Below the pieces are notes generated by a model. The model was not told where the DNA came from. It saw nothing but the letters and a program-made list of their open reading frames with translations, and ran no database searches. A stretch of 41,000 nt of DNA from Acidobacteriota bacterium (GTDB taxonomy: Bacteria; Acidobacteriota; UBA6911; RPQK01; JAJDTT01), in the NCBI GenBank assembly GCA_022827025.1, contig JAJDTT010000015.1, forward strand, positions 1 through 41,000, written 5' to 3'. Below, piece after piece: positions 31,471-40,286 of this stretch. The position numbers and the translations under genes are program-made. Positions within the stretch are counted from its first letter, which is position 1. Each line of letters opens with the position of its first letter.

Positions 31471-31812
31471 TTGTCGAAAAAAGAGCAGAGAAGGCCGGGG
31501 AAGGGTTGGCGGCACGCCTTTGCCGTGGACGCTCCGACCGAGTTCCAACCCTCGGACCAGCAGCGGCAGGTGGCCGACCGGATCTGCCGGGAGCTGGTGC
31601 GGCGCCGGCTGACGACGCCGGCCCTCATGTTTCTTGAAATGTCCCGGCCCCTCAACTTCCTGGGTTCCCAGTTGCTGCATTTCCTTTCGCCCGTGCTCTC
31701 GGGGCTCACCCAGTCCCATGGCCACCGGCACCTGGCCGCCTTTCTTGAGCATCGGGGCTCGGTGGACTATCTTTGTCGCCGGATCGAAGAACTCGATTCG
31801 GCCGGCAAATGA
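31471..31812 (+). CDS. small conserved-looking protein preceding MutL, ~113 aa
   Basis: From TTG 31471 (GGGGA eight bases upstream) the product has 113 residues; a GTG at 31525 would give 95. The core (DRICRELVRRRLTTPALMFL, then MSRPLNFLGSQLLHFLSP and YLCRRIEELD) is predicted helical with a hydrophobic middle. I recall similar small proteins beside acyl-CoA mutase or MutL-type genes but know no function. Its stop overlaps the ATG of the mutL-like gene (ATGA), so the two are coupled. It begins the seven-gene cluster 31471-38452. Confidence 0.68.
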   Translation: MSKKEQRRPGKGWRHAFAVDAPTEFQPSDQQRQVADRICRELVRRRLTTPALMFLEMSRPLNFLGSQLLHFLSPVLSGLTQSHGHRHLAAFLEHRGSVDYLCRRIEELDSAGK

Positions 31813-33623
31813 AGCAGATCGATCCCGACTCCGTCAACGTGATCCTGGCCACCGACTGCGGGAGCACCACCACCAAGGCCATCCTCATCCGGAAGGTCGA
31901 CGGAGAGTACCGGCAGACCCACCGGGGCGAGGCTCCCACGACCGTGGAGGAACCGGCGGCCGACGTGACCCTGGGCGTCGTCAACGCCGTCGCCGAAGTG
32001 GCCGAAATGGCCGGACGCCGCCTCATCGACGATGCGGGCCGGATCCTGAGGCCGGCTTCCGGCGGTGAAGGATGCGACCTCTACATCTCCACGTCCAGCG
32101 CCGGCGGCGGCCTCCAGATGATGGTGGCCGGAGTGGTGCGGGAGATGACCGCCGCCAGCGCCAAACGGGCGGCCCTGGGGGCGGGCGCCATCGTCATGGA
32201 CGTCCTGGCCTCCAATGACCGCCGCCTCCCCCACGAGCAGATCCACCGGATCCGGGAGCTGCGGCCCGACATGGTGCTGATCTCGGGGGGAACGGACGGC
32301 GGAACCACCCGCCACGTGGTGCAGATGGCCGAGCTCATCGCGCCGGCCCGTCCCCAGCCCCGCTTCGGTGCCGAGTACCGGATGCCGGTGATCTTCGCCG
32401 GGAACCGCGACGCGGCGCCGCTGGTGGAGCAGACCTTCGACGAGTCGGTCCAGCTCTCCATCGTCCCCAACCTGCGTCCGGTCCTGGAACGGGAGAATCT
32501 GGGACCGGCCCGGGACAAGATCCACGACCTGTTTCTGGAGCATGTCATGGCCCATGCCCCCGGGTACGACCGGCTGATCCGGTGGACCGACGCCCCCATC
32601 ATGCCCACGCCGGGGGCGGTGGGAAACATCCTGCAGAGGATCGCCCAACAGCAGCGGATCAACGTGGTCGGCGTGGACATCGGCGGGGCCACCACCGACG
32701 TCTTCAGCGTGTTCGACGGCACCTTCAACCGGACCGTGAGCGCCAACCTGGGAATGAGCTATTCCATCTCCAACGTCTGCGCCGAAGCGACGCTGCCCTC
32801 CATCCTCCGTTGGGTCCACCTGGAAATGGAGGAGGGAGAGTTGCGGAACCACGTCAAGAACAAGATGATCCGCCCCACCACGATTCCCCAGACCCGGGAA
32901 TCCCTGTTCTTCGAGCAGGCGGTGGCCCGCGAGGCCCTGCGCCTGGCGTACGACCAGCACAAGCAGTTCGCCACCACCCTCAAGGGCGTGCAGCAGCAGA
33001 GGACCGTGGGCGACACCTTCAGTCAGGAGGCCAGCGGCCAGACGCTGGTGGACAACATGAAGCTGGACCTGTTGGTCGGTTCGGGCGGAGTCCTCTCCCA
33101 TGCTCCCTTGATGCAGCAGACGGCGGCGCTCCTGGTGGACGCCTTTCAGCCCGAGGGAATTACCTGGCTGGCCAAGGACAGCATCTTCATGATGCCCCAC
33201 CTGGGAGTGCTGGCCCAGGTCCATCCGGAGGCGGCGCTCCAGGTGTTCCGGAGGGATTGCCTCATCTCCCTGGGAACCTGCGTGGCCCCCAGGGGAACCG
33301 GCGCCTGGGGCAGCCCCGCCTTCCGCTACGCGATCTCCGGCGGCGGTCTGGAGGAGGAGGGCGCCCTTTCCTTCGGCGAAATCAAGCGGTTGCCGTTGGG
33401 CCTGGGAGCCAGCGCCCGAATTGTCGTGGAGCCGGCGCGGAAGGTGGACGCGGGGGCGGGTCCCGGCCGGCCCCTGGAGGGTGAGCTCAGGGGCGGGACG
33501 GTGGGAGTCCTGCTGGACGCGCGGGGACGCCCGCTGGCGCTGCCCGATGATCGAGAGGCCTGCCGCAAGGCCATGGCTCAATGGGTCCGGGATCTGGATC
33601 TGGTCCCCCCGGTCCCGGCATAG
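31809..33623 (+). CDS. MutL/GlmL-family actin-fold ATPase
   Basis: The product has 604 residues from the ATG at 31809, which overlaps the preceding stop; an in-frame ATG at 31773 is inside that gene. ASKHA-type ATPase signatures are visible: phosphate-1 loop ATDCGSTTTKAILI (about 14-27), a second loop VGVDIGGATTDVFSV (about 287-301), and LISGGTDGGTTRHVVQM. GlmL and MutL are accessory proteins of B12-dependent glutamate mutase and relatives, probably for reactivation. No mutase subunit is present here, so an alternative partner is likely, in the first place the downstream membrane genes. The next gene starts 21 bases after. Confidence 0.9.
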   Translation: MKQIDPDSVNVILATDCGSTTTKAILIRKVDGEYRQTHRGEAPTTVEEPAADVTLGVVNAVAEVAEMAGRRLIDDAGRILRPASGGEGCDLYISTSSAGGGLQMMVAGVVREMTAASAKRAALGAGAIVMDVLASNDRRLPHEQIHRIRELRPDMVLISGGTDGGTTRHVVQMAELIAPARPQPRFGAEYRMPVIFAGNRDAAPLVEQTFDESVQLSIVPNLRPVLERENLGPARDKIHDLFLEHVMAHAPGYDRLIRWTDAPIMPTPGAVGNILQRIAQQQRINVVGVDIGGATTDVFSVFDGTFNRTVSANLGMSYSISNVCAEATLPSILRWVHLEMEEGELRNHVKNKMIRPTTIPQTRESLFFEQAVAREALRLAYDQHKQFATTLKGVQQQRTVGDTFSQEASGQTLVDNMKLDLLVGSGGVLSHAPLMQQTAALLVDAFQPEGITWLAKDSIFMMPHLGVLAQVHPEAALQVFRRDCLISLGTCVAPRGTGAWGSPAFRYAISGGGLEEEGALSFGEIKRLPLGLGASARIVVEPARKVDAGAGPGRPLEGELRGGTVGVLLDARGRPLALPDDREACRKAMAQWVRDLDLVPPVPA

Positions 33624-33644
33624 GAACGGCGAGGTCGACGCAGG

Positions 33645-34769
33645 ATGGCCCACGCTTACACTCCCGGTCTGAAGGTCAGTCCCCGGACCCGGTACCGGTG
33701 CCGGCGGATCCTGCCCATCAAGGGAGAGGTTCTGGTTCGAACGGGACAGCAGGTGGACTCCCGCGACGTGGTCGCCCAGACGTTCATGCCGGGAAACATC
33801 ACCCCGGTCAACGTGGCCAACCTCCTGTCGCTGCCCCCCGCGGACGTCCCCGAATGCATGCTCAAAGAGCCTGGAATGCGAGTCGAGGCCGGCGAGGCCC
33901 TGGCCCGGACCAAGGGCATATTCGGGATGTTCAAGTCGGAGTGCAAAGCCAGGGTTTCGGGGACCATCGAGTCCATTTCCCAGGTCACCGGACAAGTCAT
34001 CCTTCGCGGGGAACCGATCCCGGTCCGGGTTCTGGCCTATCTGGCCGGCCGAGTGGTTGAGGAGATCCCGGGAGAGGGCGTCGTGCTGGAGTCGGAAGCC
34101 ACCTTCATCCAGGGGATCTTCGGAATCGGCGGCGAAGCCTTCGGGCCCGTCCGGATGGTCTGCCGGAACGAGAAGGAAGAGTTGACGGCCGAGCGGCTGG
34201 ACGAAGGGATGAAGGGAGCCGTCGTGGTGGGCGGCAGCCGGATGACGGGAGAAGCCGTCCGCAAGGCGTTTCGGATCGGCATCTCGGCTCTGGTCTCGGG
34301 AGGCATGGACGATGCGGACCTGCGCCAGATCCTGGGTTACGATCTGGGAGTCGCGGTCACCGGATCGGAACCGGTGGCGACGACCCTGATCATCACCGAA
34401 GGGTTTGGCCGTATCGCCATGGCCCGCAAGACCTTCCGGTTGCTGGCCTCCCGGGAAGGGGCCCCGGCGTCGGTCAACGGCGCCACTCAGATCCGGGCCG
34501 GCGTCCAGCGGCCGGAAATCGTGATTCCGTCGCCTGCCGGAGACGCCGGCGAAGTGGACGCGGCTCGTACTGCCGGCCTGCTGGAGGTGGGGACGCCGGT
34601 CCGGGTCATCCGGGACCCGCATTTCGGAATGATCGGGGTGGTCTCCGGGCTTCCGGCCGAACCCCGGGTCCTGGGCTCCGGTTCGCGGGCGCGGGTCCTG
34701 GAGGTCCGATTGGAGTCGGGCCGGCGGCTGGTGGTGCCGCGGGCCAACGTGGAACTGATCGAGGCGTGA
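33645..34769 (+). CDS. hypothetical protein with beta-barrel-like N-terminus and KOW-like C-terminus
   Basis: The product has 374 residues. Residues ~20-130 resemble a barrel-sandwich/lipoyl-like fold (ILPIKGEVLVRTGQQVDSRD, then VEAGEALARTKG, then VILRGEPIPVRV). The middle shows a GxGGEAFGPV strand and MKGAVVVGGSRMTGEAVRKA, a possible Rossmann-like module. The end (VGTPVRVIRDPHFGMIGVV, then LPAEPRVLG and RRLVVPRANVELIE) reads as a KOW/SH3-like motif. No signal peptide or membrane helix, so cytosolic. It is linked to mutL (21 bases) and to the next gene by a GTGA overlap. Function unknown. Confidence 0.75.
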   Translation: MAHAYTPGLKVSPRTRYRCRRILPIKGEVLVRTGQQVDSRDVVAQTFMPGNITPVNVANLLSLPPADVPECMLKEPGMRVEAGEALARTKGIFGMFKSECKARVSGTIESISQVTGQVILRGEPIPVRVLAYLAGRVVEEIPGEGVVLESEATFIQGIFGIGGEAFGPVRMVCRNEKEELTAERLDEGMKGAVVVGGSRMTGEAVRKAFRIGISALVSGGMDDADLRQILGYDLGVAVTGSEPVATTLIITEGFGRIAMARKTFRLLASREGAPASVNGATQIRAGVQRPEIVIPSPAGDAGEVDAARTAGLLEVGTPVRVIRDPHFGMIGVVSGLPAEPRVLGSGSRARVLEVRLESGRRLVVPRANVELIEA

Positions 34770-35986
34770 ACAAGATGGACAAATCGATTTTCTTGACGGT
34801 GCTGGCCGCCGGTCTCTTCTCTTGGGGCGGGGCCTCTCCGGTCCTGGCCCAATCCCCCCGGCCGCCCGGTGAAGTTCGGGCCGCCGACTTTCCCAACGAC
34901 GCCGGGGACGCGGTGCGGGTCGAGTGGGAGCTGTCCCCCGACGACCAGCCCCAGCCTGCCGAACGATTGGTCGTCGCCTACGAGATCCTGAGGCGGGAAG
35001 CGGGCGAGGAGGCGTTCACCCGGATCGGAGAAGAGACCTACCAGACCCGGTCCTTCAAGGACGACGGGTGTACGCCGGGAGCAAGCTACTTCTACCAGGT
35101 GGTGGCGCTGGGCCCGGACGGGGCACGATCGCCGGCCGCCGCCGCCGGGAGTCCGGTGACGCCGGTGATGCAGTACTTCGACTTCTCCCAATTCTGGTTC
35201 GGCGTGATCCTGCTGATCGTGGGGGGGAGCGTCATCTACTTCATCCAACTGGCCCGGAGCGGGCGCGAGTTGAAGGTCCGCCCGATCGCCGGTTTGGAAG
35301 CGGTGGACGAAGCCGTGGGGCGGGCCACCGAGATGGGGCGTCCCTGCCTTTACGTTCCGGGAATCCTGGACATCAACGACATGCAGACCCTCGCCGGCGT
35401 GACGGTCCTGTCGCGGGTGGCCGGACTGACGGCCGAGTTCGACGCGCGGCTGGACGTCCCCACCTGCCGCTCCCTGGTCATGACGGCGTGCCGGGAGACG
35501 GTGGAGGCGGCGTACCTGGGGGCGGGCCGGCCCGACGCCTTCAACGAGGACTCAGTCTACTACCTGACCGACGAGCAGTTCGGCTACGTGGCCGGCGTCA
35601 CCGGGAAGATGCTCCGGGAGCGGCCGGCGGCCTGCTTCTACATGGGCGCCTTCTTTGCCGAGTCGCTGATTCTGGCCGAGACCGGCAACGCCGTCGGAGC
35701 CATCCAGGTGGCCGGGACCGCCATGCCCTCGCAGTTGCCCTTCTTCGTGGCGGCGTGCGACTACACCCTCATCGGCGAGGAGCTGTTCGCCGCCTCGGCC
35801 TACCTCTCCGGGGAGAGCCACCAACTCGGCAGCCTCAAGGGACAGGACGTGGGAAAGGTCCTGGGAGGAACGCTGGTGGTCGTGGGATGCTTGTTGTCCA
35901 CGGCCGCGGTCTTGACCGATGCCGCGTTGCTGAACCAGGTGCTGTCCTATCTGACCGATCACGTCCTGGGAAACCAGGGCTGGTAA
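34766..35986 (+). CDS. fibronectin-III/DUF6754-type membrane protein
   Basis: The product has 406 residues from GTG 34766 (overlap GTGA), or from the ATG at 34775. Residues 1-29 are a signal peptide, ~30-130 a fibronectin type III-like domain (VEWELSPDDQPQPAERLVVAY in part), ~141-162 a membrane helix (FWFGVILLIVGGSVIYFIQL), and ~165-370 a conserved domain I believe is DUF6754 (GLEAVDEAVGRATEMGRP, PGILDINDMQTLAGVTVL, GAIQVAGTAMPSQLPFFVAA). A second helix lies at ~364-388. The N-terminus should be outside and the DUF domain in the cytosol. Sits third from the MutL ATPase; function unknown. Confidence 0.8.
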   Translation: MNKMDKSIFLTVLAAGLFSWGGASPVLAQSPRPPGEVRAADFPNDAGDAVRVEWELSPDDQPQPAERLVVAYEILRREAGEEAFTRIGEETYQTRSFKDDGCTPGASYFYQVVALGPDGARSPAAAAGSPVTPVMQYFDFSQFWFGVILLIVGGSVIYFIQLARSGRELKVRPIAGLEAVDEAVGRATEMGRPCLYVPGILDINDMQTLAGVTVLSRVAGLTAEFDARLDVPTCRSLVMTACRETVEAAYLGAGRPDAFNEDSVYYLTDEQFGYVAGVTGKMLRERPAACFYMGAFFAESLILAETGNAVGAIQVAGTAMPSQLPFFVAACDYTLIGEELFAASAYLSGESHQLGSLKGQDVGKVLGGTLVVVGCLLSTAAVLTDAALLNQVLSYLTDHVLGNQGW

Positions 35987-35999
35987 GGAACGAACACAT

Positions 36000-36686
36000 A
36001 TGAAGAGAACTTTACCCCTGCTCATTGCCGCGGTGACGGGATTCGTCCTCATCGGGGCCCACTTCGTCCCCTACACCCAGTCGTGGGGCGAAGAGGCCAT
36101 GATCTGGTTCGACATCCTGGCCGCCATCGCCTTCATTCTGGGGGGCGCCAACCTGGTGAGGCTCAACCTGCAGAAGATCTCGGACCGGAGGGCCGGCTGG
36201 GGCTACGCGGCCGTCACCGTCATCGCGTTCTTCCTGACCCTGGTGGTGGGCATGGCCAAGATGGGGGTCCACCCCAGCGCCCAGTTTCCCCAGTTCGCCT
36301 GGTCGGGGGACTACGTTCAGGAGGGCAGCTCTTTCTGGTTCATTTACCAGTACGCCTTCTACCCCCTGGGGGCCACCATGTTCGCCCTGCTGGCCTGCTT
36401 CATCGCCTCGGCCGCGTTCCGGGCCTTCCGGGCCAAGAACACCGAGGCCATCATCCTGCTCTCCACCGCCTTCATCGTCCTGGTGGGGCGGACCTACGCC
36501 GGCACGGCCCTGACGGGATGGATGCCCGAGGCGCTCCAATTCGACAACCTCACCGGGACCATCATGAACGTCTTCAACCTGGCGGGGAACCGGGCCATCA
36601 CCATCGGTATCGGTCTCGGGGTTGTCTCCCTATCGCTGAAGATTCTGCTGGGCGTCGATCGCTCCTATCTGGGAACGGAGGAATAG
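36000..36686 (+). CDS. six-helix membrane protein of the MutL cluster
   Basis: The product has 228 residues. Predicted helices are at about 4-24, 33-55, 68-88, 115-140, 148-168 and 190-215. A conserved-looking loop, QFAWSGDYVQEGSSFWFIYQY, lies between helices 3 and 4. No known family. It follows the DUF6754-type gene by 13 bases and precedes the next by 3 bases, so it is surely part of the same transcript. Possible core or anchor of an envelope complex. Confidence 0.75.
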   Translation: MKRTLPLLIAAVTGFVLIGAHFVPYTQSWGEEAMIWFDILAAIAFILGGANLVRLNLQKISDRRAGWGYAAVTVIAFFLTLVVGMAKMGVHPSAQFPQFAWSGDYVQEGSSFWFIYQYAFYPLGATMFALLACFIASAAFRAFRAKNTEAIILLSTAFIVLVGRTYAGTALTGWMPEALQFDNLTGTIMNVFNLAGNRAITIGIGLGVVSLSLKILLGVDRSYLGTEE

Positions 36687-36689
36687 TTC

Positions 36690-37550
36690 ATGAATCTCAC
36701 CGAATTCTTCCGCAATCTGGACCGGCGCTGGATCTTCCTCCTGATGCTGTTGTCCATCCTGATTCCGCTTCTGTTCGGGCTCCGGTTTCCCGAGAGTCCG
36801 TCGCCCATGGTCCTGAACGTCCGTTCGGCCATCGAGGAACTCCCCGAGGGATCGGATGTTCTGATGGCCTGGGACTTCGACCCCGCCAGCCGGGGCGAGT
36901 TGAGTCCCATGGCCGCCGCTTTCGTCCGCCACTGCGCCTACAAGAAGCACAAGCTCTACTTCTTGACGCTGTGGGCCACCGGCGGTCCCTTGATCCAGGA
37001 GAGTATCGACATCCTGAATCGCGAGTTTCCCGGCTACGAGTACGGGCGCGACTACGTGAACCTGGGCTTCCGTCCCGGCGGCGAAGGGGTCATCAAGGTG
37101 GTGGTGGGGGACCTGAAGAAGCTCTTCGCCAACGACGTGGACGGAACCAGTCTGGACGAGCTGGCGCTCACCCGGAATCTGAAGAACATCCGCCAAATGG
37201 ACCTCATCGTCAACGTGAGCGCGGGCTATCCGGGCACCAAGGAGTGGGTGCTCTATGCCGCAACCCCCTACGACCTGGAGATCGTCGGGGGGACCACGGG
37301 AGTCTCGGCCCCGTCACTGTATCCCTATATTCCAGGGCAATTGACCGGCCTGCTGGCGGCCATCAAGGCGGCGGCCGAGTACGAGCAGGCGGTCATCGAC
37401 CTCTATCCCGCCCTGATGGAGAATGACACGGCGCAGGAGGGACTGCGGCGAATGGGTCCACAGCTCCTGGCCCACATGCTGGTGATCCTGCTCATCGTTG
37501 CAGGCAACGTCATCTACTTCTGGGAGCGGAGAAAGGGGGTGGCGTCATGA
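36690..37550 (+). CDS. membrane protein with ~220-residue extracytoplasmic domain
   Basis: The product has 286 residues: helix ~13-32, a soluble domain (~40-250) and a C-terminal helix ~255-278 (MLVILLIVAGNVIYFWERRK). By the positive-inside rule both ends are in the cytosol and the large domain is outside. That domain has alternating beta/alpha patterns (VLMAWDFDPASRGELSPMA, KKHKLYFLTLWATGG, KEWVLYAATPYDLEIVGGTT) and resembles no family I can name. Its stop overlaps the next start (ATGA). Confidence 0.75.
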   Translation: MNLTEFFRNLDRRWIFLLMLLSILIPLLFGLRFPESPSPMVLNVRSAIEELPEGSDVLMAWDFDPASRGELSPMAAAFVRHCAYKKHKLYFLTLWATGGPLIQESIDILNREFPGYEYGRDYVNLGFRPGGEGVIKVVVGDLKKLFANDVDGTSLDELALTRNLKNIRQMDLIVNVSAGYPGTKEWVLYAATPYDLEIVGGTTGVSAPSLYPYIPGQLTGLLAAIKAAAEYEQAVIDLYPALMENDTAQEGLRRMGPQLLAHMLVILLIVAGNVIYFWERRKGVAS

Positions 37551-38452
37551 GCCGCTCCGGTTGGATTTGGACGGCATTGATGGTGGTGGCCGGGATCTAC
37601 CTGTTGGTGAGGCTGGCGACGGGAGGCATGGGACTGGTCTACGTTCAGGACCAGCCGGTGGAGGTCCAGGAACCGGGACAGGAATCCTGGAGCCGGGCCG
37701 TGGGTGTGGATCCCAAGCGCCAGGGTGAAGCGGGGGTCCGCGTGAGTTGGTCCCGAACCGTGGGAACCTGGCTGGCCGCCCTCTTCACGCTCTGCATCCT
37801 CTCCTTTCTCTATGGAGACAATCCCCTCTACAAGTTGGCTGAGGCCGTCTTCGTCGGGGTCTCGGCGGGCTACTGGATGGTCGTCGGGTTCTGGACCGGA
37901 ATCGTTCAGAACCTCTTCAGCAAGCTGGCTCCCGATCTGATCCGGAGTTCGCTGCTTCCGGGCCTCCCCGAATCCCAGGACCAGGAACTCATCTACCTGT
38001 TTCCGCTCCTGCTGAGCGTCCTGATGTTGATGAGGCTCTCCCCGGTCGGGGGGTGGATCTCCCGCTGGGCCCTGGCCTTCTTCATCGGCGCCACTGCCGG
38101 GATCCGGCTGTTGGGCTATCTCCAGAGCGACTTTCTCCGGCAGATCCAGAGCACGATCCTTCCCCTGGTGGTGGTCGGGTCCCAGGGATTCGATTTTTCG
38201 GCCTCCCTCCAGAATCTGACCATCGTGGTGGGAGTCTTGTCGTGCCTGACCTATTTCTTCTTTTCCATCGAGCACAAGGGGGTCGTGGGAGGCGTCTCGC
38301 GCCTGGGAATCTGGTTCCTCATGATCACCTTCGGGGCCGGATTCGGCTACACGGTGATGGGGCGCATCGCGCTGATGGCCCAGAGGCTGGAGTTCCTCGC
38401 GGACGATTGGCTCTGGGTCATCGATCCGGCGAGTCGGCGGCTCGGCATGTAG
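37547..38452 (+). CDS. polytopic membrane protein, last gene of the MutL cluster
   Basis: The product has 301 residues with about seven helices: ~7-25, a polar loop to ~70 with VYVQDQPVEVQEPGQ, then helices at ~72-90, 94-120, 148-165, 170-190, 225-245 and 255-275. The segment LYGDNPLYKLAEAVFVGVSA and the C-terminal DDWLWVIDPASRR are notable but unassigned. Overlap with the previous gene (ATGA) shows coupling. Function unknown. Confidence 0.75.
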   Translation: MSRSGWIWTALMVVAGIYLLVRLATGGMGLVYVQDQPVEVQEPGQESWSRAVGVDPKRQGEAGVRVSWSRTVGTWLAALFTLCILSFLYGDNPLYKLAEAVFVGVSAGYWMVVGFWTGIVQNLFSKLAPDLIRSSLLPGLPESQDQELIYLFPLLLSVLMLMRLSPVGGWISRWALAFFIGATAGIRLLGYLQSDFLRQIQSTILPLVVVGSQGFDFSASLQNLTIVVGVLSCLTYFFFSIEHKGVVGGVSRLGIWFLMITFGAGFGYTVMGRIALMAQRLEFLADDWLWVIDPASRRLGM

Positions 38453-38480: not shown

Positions 38481-39974
38481 ATGAAATCGATTTTGCGGAT
38501 GTTTGTATTGCTGGTTCTGGCGGGCGGTTCCGGCGCCGGGGCGTCGAGTCACGGGAAGAAGGCCGCCGATTCCGTCCCGGCTCCCGACCTGGGGAACCGC
38601 CTGGAGCTTTTCGTCGACGACACCCTCATCGAGTCCATGGACGGCGTGGAGCTGGAAGTCCAGCAGCCCCGGCGCGCCGAGAAGGTCTTCGTCTTCGACC
38701 AGCCCTGGGAAGGGAACATCCCCTTCCACGTGGCGGTCTTCAAGGACGACGAAATCTACCGCATGTACTACCGGGGCAGCTCCGCGGTCGACTACATCCA
38801 CCGGGAAGAGCTGGAGCCGGGGGAGACCTGGGTCGCTGCCCACGAGAAGGTCGTCTGCTACGCCGAGAGCCGGGACGGCATCCACTGGACCCGTCCCTCC
38901 TTGGGGCAGGTGGAGTTCAACGGCTCCCGGGACAACAATATCCTGGAGGTCCGGGGCGCCGCCAAGCTGAATCCCTTCCGGGACGACAATCCGGCGGCTC
39001 CGGCCGAGGCCCGCTACAAGGCGGTGGCTTTCGCCAAGCCCGGGAACCACCGGGGCCTGGTGGCCCTGGCCTCTCCCGACGGTATCCGCTGGAGCTGGAT
39101 GCGTGAGGTTCCGGTCCTCACCGACGGCGCCTTCGACTCCCACAACGTGGCCTTCTGGGATGGAGAGCGAGGCGTCTACGTAGCGCTCTACCGGGATTTC
39201 CTCCACGGGGTCCGGACCCTCAAGTACGCCACCTCAAAGGACTTCGTCGAATGGTCCGAGGGCCGGTGGGTGGACTACGGCGACTCTCCCACCGAACATC
39301 TCTACACCAATGCCACCGTGCCCTATTTTCGGGCTCCCCATCTCTACCTCTCCTTTCCCAAGCGCTTCGTGACCTACCGGATTCCCCAACATCTGGATCC
39401 CGCACTTGCCGCGGAATGGCCCGGCCTCTCCGACGGTGTCCTGATGAGCAACCGCGACGGCGTCCATTGGCACCGCTTCATGGAAGCCTTCATCCGCCCC
39501 GGAAGGGACCGGCGCAACTGGATCCACCGGAACGGCCTCGTAGCCCGGGGCATCGTGCCCACGGCGCCGGGGGAGCTCTCCCTCTACCTGGTGCAGCATT
39601 ACACCTATCCGTCGGCCCACCTGCAGCGCATCGTGGTCCGGACCGACGGCTTCGCCTCCGCCAGCGCCGGCTACCCGGGAGGAGAGCTGATCACGAAACC
39701 GTTCCGTTTCAGCGGAGAGAACCTGGTCCTGAACTACTCCACTTCCGCGGCCGGCTCCATCCGGGTGGAGATCCAGGACGTCAACGGCAACCCGGCGCCC
39801 GGACTTTCGCTGACCGAATCGGTCCCGATCTGGGGAGACGAGCTGGAGGGGAAGGCGGGATGGGTTCACGGCGGCAAGGTTCGTGGGAAACCCCTCCGTC
39901 GAATCGCCGGAAAGACGGTCCGCCTGCGCTTCGTCCTGCAGGACGCCGATCTCTACTCGTTCCGTTTCCGATAG
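38481..39974 (+). CDS. secreted glycoside-hydrolase/sialidase-like propeller protein
   Basis: The product has 497 residues with AAGGAG before the ATG. Residues 1-21 form a signal peptide (ILRMFVLLVLAGGSGAGAS). The body shows repeated beta-propeller-type blocks (DEIYRMYYRGSS, YAESRDGIHWTRPS, ALASPDGIRWSWMREV, YATSKDFVEWSEGR, LMSNRDGVHWHRFMEA), like GH32/43/sialidase-superfold proteins abundant in Acidobacteria, Planctomycetes and Lentisphaerae. The last ~110 residues look like a beta-sandwich carbohydrate-binding module. Substrate unknown. It is only 28 bases after the MutL cluster and might be expressed with it; a GGCCGC/GCGGCC hairpin follows at 39989-40006. Confidence 0.75.
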   Translation: MKSILRMFVLLVLAGGSGAGASSHGKKAADSVPAPDLGNRLELFVDDTLIESMDGVELEVQQPRRAEKVFVFDQPWEGNIPFHVAVFKDDEIYRMYYRGSSAVDYIHREELEPGETWVAAHEKVVCYAESRDGIHWTRPSLGQVEFNGSRDNNILEVRGAAKLNPFRDDNPAAPAEARYKAVAFAKPGNHRGLVALASPDGIRWSWMREVPVLTDGAFDSHNVAFWDGERGVYVALYRDFLHGVRTLKYATSKDFVEWSEGRWVDYGDSPTEHLYTNATVPYFRAPHLYLSFPKRFVTYRIPQHLDPALAAEWPGLSDGVLMSNRDGVHWHRFMEAFIRPGRDRRNWIHRNGLVARGIVPTAPGELSLYLVQHYTYPSAHLQRIVVRTDGFASASAGYPGGELITKPFRFSGENLVLNYSTSAAGSIRVEIQDVNGNPAPGLSLTESVPIWGDELEGKAGWVHGGKVRGKPLRRIAGKTVRLRFVLQDADLYSFRFR

Positions 39975-40055: not shown

Positions 40056-40286
40056 TGAAAAAGGGGACAGTCCATTATTCCGGGCCGGTCATTTTTCTGG
40101 GGCGGGAGGCACCATGGGTCTCGAAGAACGAGCCGACATCGTGATCGGTCTCTTCAGGAATCTGTTTGCAGTGAAAAAGGGGACAGTCCATTATTCTGGG
40201 CCGGTCATTTTTCTGGGGCGGGAGGCACCATGGGTCTCGAAGAACGAGCCGACATCGTGATCGGTCTCTTCAGGAATCTGTTTGCA
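40056..40286 (+). repeat. 116-bp tandem duplication (two copies, one mismatch)
   Basis: 40056-40170 and 40172-40286 are identical apart from position 40081 (C) versus 40197 (T). Each copy contains TGAAAAAGGGGACAGTCC, a ribosome site GGGAGG, and the first 19 codons of the hypothetical gene at 40230. The period of 116 is not a multiple of three, so the first copy is frameshifted. Confidence 0.95.
40114..40260 (+). pseudogene. truncated duplicate of the 5' end of the downstream hypothetical gene
   Basis: The ATG at 40114 starts the same first 19 residues (GLEERADIVIGLFRNLFA) as the intact gene, then shifts frame at the duplication joint and stops at 40260 after about 48 codons. It has its own copy of the GGGAGG ribosome site. 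It may still be translated into a short peptide. Confidence 0.65.

Follow-up and report, generated by a model that had tools for sequence, protein, structure and literature searches.

Seven consecutive genes (A to G) of an Acidobacteriota genome, contained in the 41,000-nucleotide stretch of DNA analyzed here (the window), probably encode a hitherto unknown cell-membrane machine. In the favored reading, to which a probability of about 0.5 is assigned, they constitute one dedicated inner-membrane system in which a cytosolic unit formed by B, a MutL-type ATPase, and C, a putative adaptor, would use ATP on a complex of the four membrane proteins D, E, F, and G through the DUF6754 domain of D. The ATPase family is known; the link of MutL to the membrane quartet and the paralog arrays of the latter appear to be undescribed.

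Layout of the cluster in the window

The preliminary description of this DNA reported seven consecutive plus-strand genes that overlap or are separated by gaps of 3–21 bases, and this layout is borne out at 31471–38452 (Table 1), where all the overlaps are of 4 bases. In particular, the junctions measure, in bases, −4 for A/B (ATGA), +21 for B/C, −4 for C/D (GTGA), +13 for D/E, +3 for E/F, and −4 for F/G (ATGA). The start of B is the ATG at 31809, inside the first of these ATGA overlaps, the TTG at 31773 merely giving the longest frame. A fixed stoichiometry, which had been deduced from the chain of overlaps, cannot be read from gene overlaps.

Table 1. Genes of the cluster and predicted features of their products
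Gene	Predicted product	Coordinates	Strand	Length and remarks
A	Small soluble helical protein	31471..31812	+	113 aa, TTG start; conserved first cluster gene; no TM segment predicted
B	MutL-family ASKHA ATPase	31809..33623	+	604 aa; PF13941 match; DUF6754-associated clade
C	Putative cytosolic adaptor	33645..34769	+	374 aa; barrel-sandwich hybrid, middle domain, and C-terminal KOW/SH3-like domain, weakly detected
D	Signal peptide, FnIII (outside), TM, DUF6754 (cytosolic), TM	34766..35986	+	406 aa; PF20539
E	Membrane protein, six TM predicted	36000..36686	+	228 aa; directly 3' of D, conserved
F	TM, Rossmann-like extracytoplasmic domain of about 220 aa, TM	36690..37550	+	286 aa
G	Polytopic membrane protein, about six TM predicted	37547..38452	+	301 aa; directly 3' of F, conserved

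A family search gave no Pfam family above cut-off for A, C, E, F, and G of the window. Gene conservation and order were studied by running profiles of all seven window proteins over the best 80 of at least 543 D relatives, which were obtained by scanning genome contigs with the D alignment and were taken with 10 kb flanks. Homologues of each of the seven proteins are found in the same gene setting in other phyla, so that none of the genes, the short A included, is a chance open reading frame (ORF). A, for which the profile search of the PDB gave nothing convincing, has homologues in 27 of 82 loci; in Planctomycetota, Marinimicrobia, and other groups it is the gene immediately 5' of B. In 13 loci (e.g., L024:5202–5747), A is itself directly preceded by a small membrane protein that matches no Pfam family and is a possible eighth component of the system; it is absent from the window, where the left neighbor of the cluster, preceding A, is a FAA hydrolase gene on the opposite strand.

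On the right side, the next gene (38481–39974) starts 28 bases past G and encodes a secreted protein of about 500 aa with no Pfam family; the sister genome G003 (L135) also has a homologue 3' of its cluster, and the protein was not found among the recurrent cluster neighbors in other phyla. The window also carries, at 40056–40286, a near-perfect tandem duplication of 115 bases, 99% identical and with a spacing of 116.

Distribution, co-occurrence, and gene order

The best 80 loci belong to Planctomycetota, Zixibacteria, Marinimicrobia, Gemmatimonadota, Latescibacterota, Coatesbacteria, WOR-3, Myxococcota, and Acidobacteriota, and DUF6754 was not found in the plasmid collection. In the phylum of the window the domain is present in 4 of 297 genomes, and among the relatives of the window genome it is confined to the same genus (4 of 60, the window's own genome included). 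D, E, F, and G of the window in their trees, and B by its nearest rows, sit among Planctomycetota sequences; this position makes a transfer from Planctomycetota into this genus the likely history of the window copy, which was probably acquired in that way.

The preliminary description proposed a dedicated system in which a membrane complex is linked to a MutL-type ATPase; this proposal is sustained in two respects: the membrane genes are not widespread without MutL, and no recognized mutase accompanies the homologous clusters (see below). MutL is present in 49 of the 50 genomes with DUF6754; the exception is G325 (L048), a Zixibacteria genome consisting of a single-record closed chromosome with two D-E-F-G quartets and no MutL match. 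Among 199 evenly drawn Planctomycetota genomes, 49 contain D, 47 contain C, 50 contain F, and 48 contain the window type of B, once three weak GlmL-like matches are dropped. D and B are both present in 44 of these genomes, D only in 5, some of which may be incomplete MAGs, B only in 4, and neither in 146 (Fisher 1e-33); for B and C, the corresponding counts are 46 with both, 2 with B only, 1 with C only, and 150 with neither, and F is present in 49/49 of the D genomes. The Fisher values overstate independence, since the genomes are related; the signal is nonetheless clear. In Thalassoglobus G313, moreover, the genes are spread over different contigs and B, C, D, and F are nevertheless all present; co-occurrence is thus not dependent on linkage.

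The gene order, which was expected to be fixed, is kept in most genomes, whereas the genes are scattered in some Planctomycetaceae and rearranged in Zixibacteria. Of the 95 cases, drawn from several phyla, in which enough sequence is available downstream of D, 90 have E-F-G after it on the same strand, and the full A-B-C-D-E-F-G order occurs in Planctomycetota and Marinimicrobia; in many Zixibacteria, B-C is divergent from two to four tandem D-E-F-G quartets. C is located just downstream of B in 28 of 32 unfused cases according to a strict distance rule, and two of the four cases failing the rule (L011 and L021) also show C adjoining B. A single ORF of 993–1006 aa encodes B and C as a fusion in four Marinimicrobia loci.

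Some local arrangements accompany this general picture. In L032 and L042 (Thalassoglobus and Planctomicrobium) C and D are paired and E, F, and G are away from D, with F and B on other contigs of the L032 genome. L066 (655–1449) and four other Zixibacteria loci have, beside C, a secreted protein with a weak PsbP-like match and a C-terminal TM helix. In Phycisphaerae (L014, L023, L035, L053, and others) the cluster is followed on its 3' side by fatty-acid synthesis genes, which on sequence inspection look like plsX, fabH, fabD, fabG, acpP, and fabF; they were dropped as a functional hint, being confined to Phycisphaerae.

The ATPase, the adaptor, and the membrane quartet

B matches the Pfam MutL family (PF13941) with 426 bits over positions 1–450 of 450, and the motifs DCGSTTTK, GGATTD, and SGGVLSHAP, corresponding to the motifs for phosphate-1, phosphate-2, and adenosine, do not vary across the alignment of B-type proteins, whose mean column identity is 70% across phyla. 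The full-length match and the nucleotide motifs assign B, at the level of sequence, to MutL within the ASKHA superfamily. Of the designation as a MutL/GlmL-like ATPase only the MutL part stands: against the GlmL model NF040745, B scores 234.1 bits, about half of the cut-off of 475, whereas true GlmL proteins of the same phylum reach 475–564 bits. Likewise, a profile of the window-type MutL gives 998–1175 bits with DUF6754-associated MutL proteins and 102–162 bits with GlmL types. The MutL tree, in which two GlmL rows have very long branches, separates DUF6754-type proteins, GlmL-type proteins, and lone fusions into three groups (SH-aLRT 99, 100, and 100%). As judged from its separate clade and its score below cut-off, the B of the window is not a GlmL. 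The lone MutL-C fusions, of 936–982 aa, come from two Zixibacteria genomes (L138:6013–8958 and L139:6454–9261), have no adjacent DUF6754 quartet, and are a third MutL type.

To our knowledge, those members of this MutL family that have been characterized assist B12-dependent mutases. B shares the Pfam family, the full-length match, and the nucleotide motifs with the GlmL/MutL accessory proteins of glutamate mutase (NF040745, TIGR01319) and with OR-4 of ornithine mutase (NF040744); however, it forms its own clade, is about 100 residues longer at the C-terminus, falls far under the GlmL/OR-4 cut-offs, and has C and the membrane quartet as partners. Neither glutamate mutase E (GlmE, PF06368) nor ornithine mutase E (OraE) is found above cut-off in any of the 54 system-bearing genomes, the window's own included. 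In the phylum of the window, 13 other genomes have MutL without DUF6754; in L129, L131, and L133, family models detect a MutL at the GlmL level and/or adjoining methylaspartate mutase genes.

C had been described as a barrel/KOW protein; the barrel is confirmed as a biotin/lipoyl-type barrel-sandwich hybrid and is joined by a conserved middle domain, while the KOW domain is weakly detected. Among the 36 members of the C family, profile matches to Biotin_lipoyl occur in 31 and to RnfC_N in 18; a C-terminal KOW (PF00467) is matched in 6, weakly, with a best E of 0.0032, and the C profile gives weak matches to the KOW of NusG/SPT5 (E 0.04–0.06) and a weak match to RNAP beta'. No Lys is conserved in ≥90% of the 36 members, hence there is no biotin/lipoyl site, and no conserved cofactor-bearing Cys or His is found in them either. 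The N-terminal barrel-sandwich hybrid of RnfC and NqrA is of the same domain type, with weak to moderate matches, but C differs from these proteins in its middle domain and putative KOW end, and the seven genes include no other Rnf/Nqr subunit.

The identification of D as a signal-peptide/FnIII/DUF6754 protein is correct. D is an unambiguous member of PF20539 (398.9 bits, gathering cut-off 27), a family with no assigned function, and the FnIII domain is recognized both by sequence (phmmer to titin, E 2e-5) and by fold (Foldseek to titin FnIII, E 3e-7, TM-score on target 0.81); in the Foldseek search of D, FnIII domains swamped the matches. The placement of the FnIII domain and of the domain of about 220 residues of F outside the membrane agrees with the topology predictions, based for D on charge distribution, and DUF6754 itself is predicted to be cytosolic. 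Near-invariant columns amount to 79 of 192 in the cytosolic DUF6754 part versus 6 of 100 in FnIII. The AlphaFold2 model of the DUF6754 domain has an alpha/beta layout with low confidence in residues 309–337, the most conserved stretch, and the client site of DUF6754 is therefore not captured by the model. The window D lacks the cobalamin motif DxHxxG, as do 40 of 41 aligned members, and the only match, in the remaining member, is not conserved.

F is modeled with high confidence (AlphaFold2 mean pLDDT 93.9) and has no convincing PDB match by Foldseek or profile search; low-TM Rossmann/GT-B matches, the only ones given by Foldseek, were not taken as an identification. Profile searches gave no convincing Pfam or PDB relative for E and G. 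Between D (cytosolic domain) and F (outer domain) a homology seemed plausible by eye, given the common layout and a G-T-A...YP/LPFF pattern, but it obtained no support from profile-profile comparison; the same is true of a homology between E and G.

The tandem arrays of the D-E-F-G module in Zixibacteria were not foreseen by the preliminary description. In the tree of D (110 locus proteins and the window), array positions 1, 2, and 3 largely coincide with three clades common to the genomes, with 20 position changes against 50 expected in shuffles, and the trees of E, F, and G have the same clustering by array position; all are quick FastTree runs whose branching details are not secure. This clustering of the copies in the four proteins indicates that the quartet was duplicated early as one unit and that the copies have been kept in order. 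The D proteins of single-copy Planctomycetota, of Marinimicrobia, and of the window join the position-2 side. Such ordered and diverged copies fit one machine composed of diverged modules or three parallel machines.

Proposed mechanism, alternatives, and significance

Co-occurrence, the B-C fusion, the predicted topology, and the pattern of conservation point to a physical complex. D, E, F, and G would form a membrane assembly with DUF6754 turned inward and two domains, the FnIII of D and the Rossmann-like one of F, turned outward; B and C would act as one cytosolic unit, ASKHA ATPase and barrel-sandwich/KOW adaptor, which may bind DUF6754 on its nearly invariant cytosolic face and spend ATP on loading, opening, remodeling, or reactivating the assembly. 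By analogy with MutL/GlmL and the other ASKHA reactivases, which work on an alpha/beta partner, a membrane client would here replace the B12 mutase. A more far-reaching version, advanced tentatively, considers the system as an ATP-driven inner-membrane machine of a hitherto unknown class, with D-E-F-G modules powered by the MutL-type ATPase together with its adaptor, whether fused or paired; in Zixibacteria the three diverged and ordered copies might build one hetero-multimer of up to twelve membrane subunits, while the window and Planctomycetota might retain a single module, the one related to the middle copy.

B and C could instead be an enzyme pair, comparable to the subunits of ATP-dependent hydantoinase/oxoprolinase or acetone carboxylase, phosphorylating or ring-opening a metabolite imported or exported by D-E-F-G. 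B does exceed the Hydantoinase_A cut-off (28.6 versus 22.9 bits), the barrel-sandwich hybrid fold of C resembles carrier or electron-transfer subunits, and substrate handling is conceivable for a membrane quartet that has a Rossmann-like domain on the outside; however, C has no conserved Lys, Cys, or His for a cofactor, a HyuB/AcxB-type partner was not noticed among the recurrent neighbors, and the putative KOW domain would be unusual in a metabolic enzyme, so this explanation is considered unlikely. PilM and FtsA are ASKHA proteins through which the nucleotide state in the cytosol is tied to an assembly of the inner membrane that has outer domains, and the overall layout of the PilM-PilNOP and FtsA assemblies, a cytosolic ASKHA protein with inner-membrane proteins bearing outer domains, is the same as that of the B system. 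B might then be a scaffold which, in its ATP-bound form, recruits or positions the membrane complex with no reactivase action; this is slightly less probable still, in that B is a full-length MutL, matching the profile at each of its 450 positions and having every nucleotide motif, and no pilus, secretion, or division (divisome) gene was noticed recurring beside the cluster. B belongs to MutL and not to PilM or FtsA, and these assemblies are not classed as its relatives in sequence.

The idea that B is an ordinary MutL/GlmL reactivase of a B12-dependent mutase encoded elsewhere, with the membrane genes hitchhiking, has in its favor the Pfam family common to GlmL and the proteins with B12-binding domains of the system genomes (weak domain-only matches). 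It is very improbable in view of the separate clade and low GlmL score of B, the lack of GlmE and OraE above cut-off in the system-bearing genomes, the strict co-occurrence of B with DUF6754, and the fact that true GlmL in the examined Acidobacteriota genomes adjoins methylaspartate mutase. A chance neighborhood of unrelated genes carried by one transfer could account for a cluster found, in Acidobacteriota, chiefly in the window's own genus and for D, E, F, and G lying among Planctomycetota sequences, but the same genes recur in many phyla, mostly in the same order, and co-occur even when scattered, which leaves this reading hardly credible.

The literature search, which did not extend to subscription journals and preprints, found no paper mentioning DUF6754, and MutL with related terms gave nothing on this system; MutL, mutase, fibronectin, and KOW do not appear in the main text of the P. 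limnophila essential-gene paper (PMC10632474). The dedicated ATPase–membrane system favored here concerns a deeply conserved branch of MutL tied to membrane proteins without recognized relatives, and it is present in about a quarter of the Planctomycetota sample and in several largely uncultured phyla. Given this frequency, it probably belongs to core envelope physiology in these organisms, and the existence of cultured carriers, such as Thalassoglobus neptunius strain KOR42, makes genetics and biochemistry possible.
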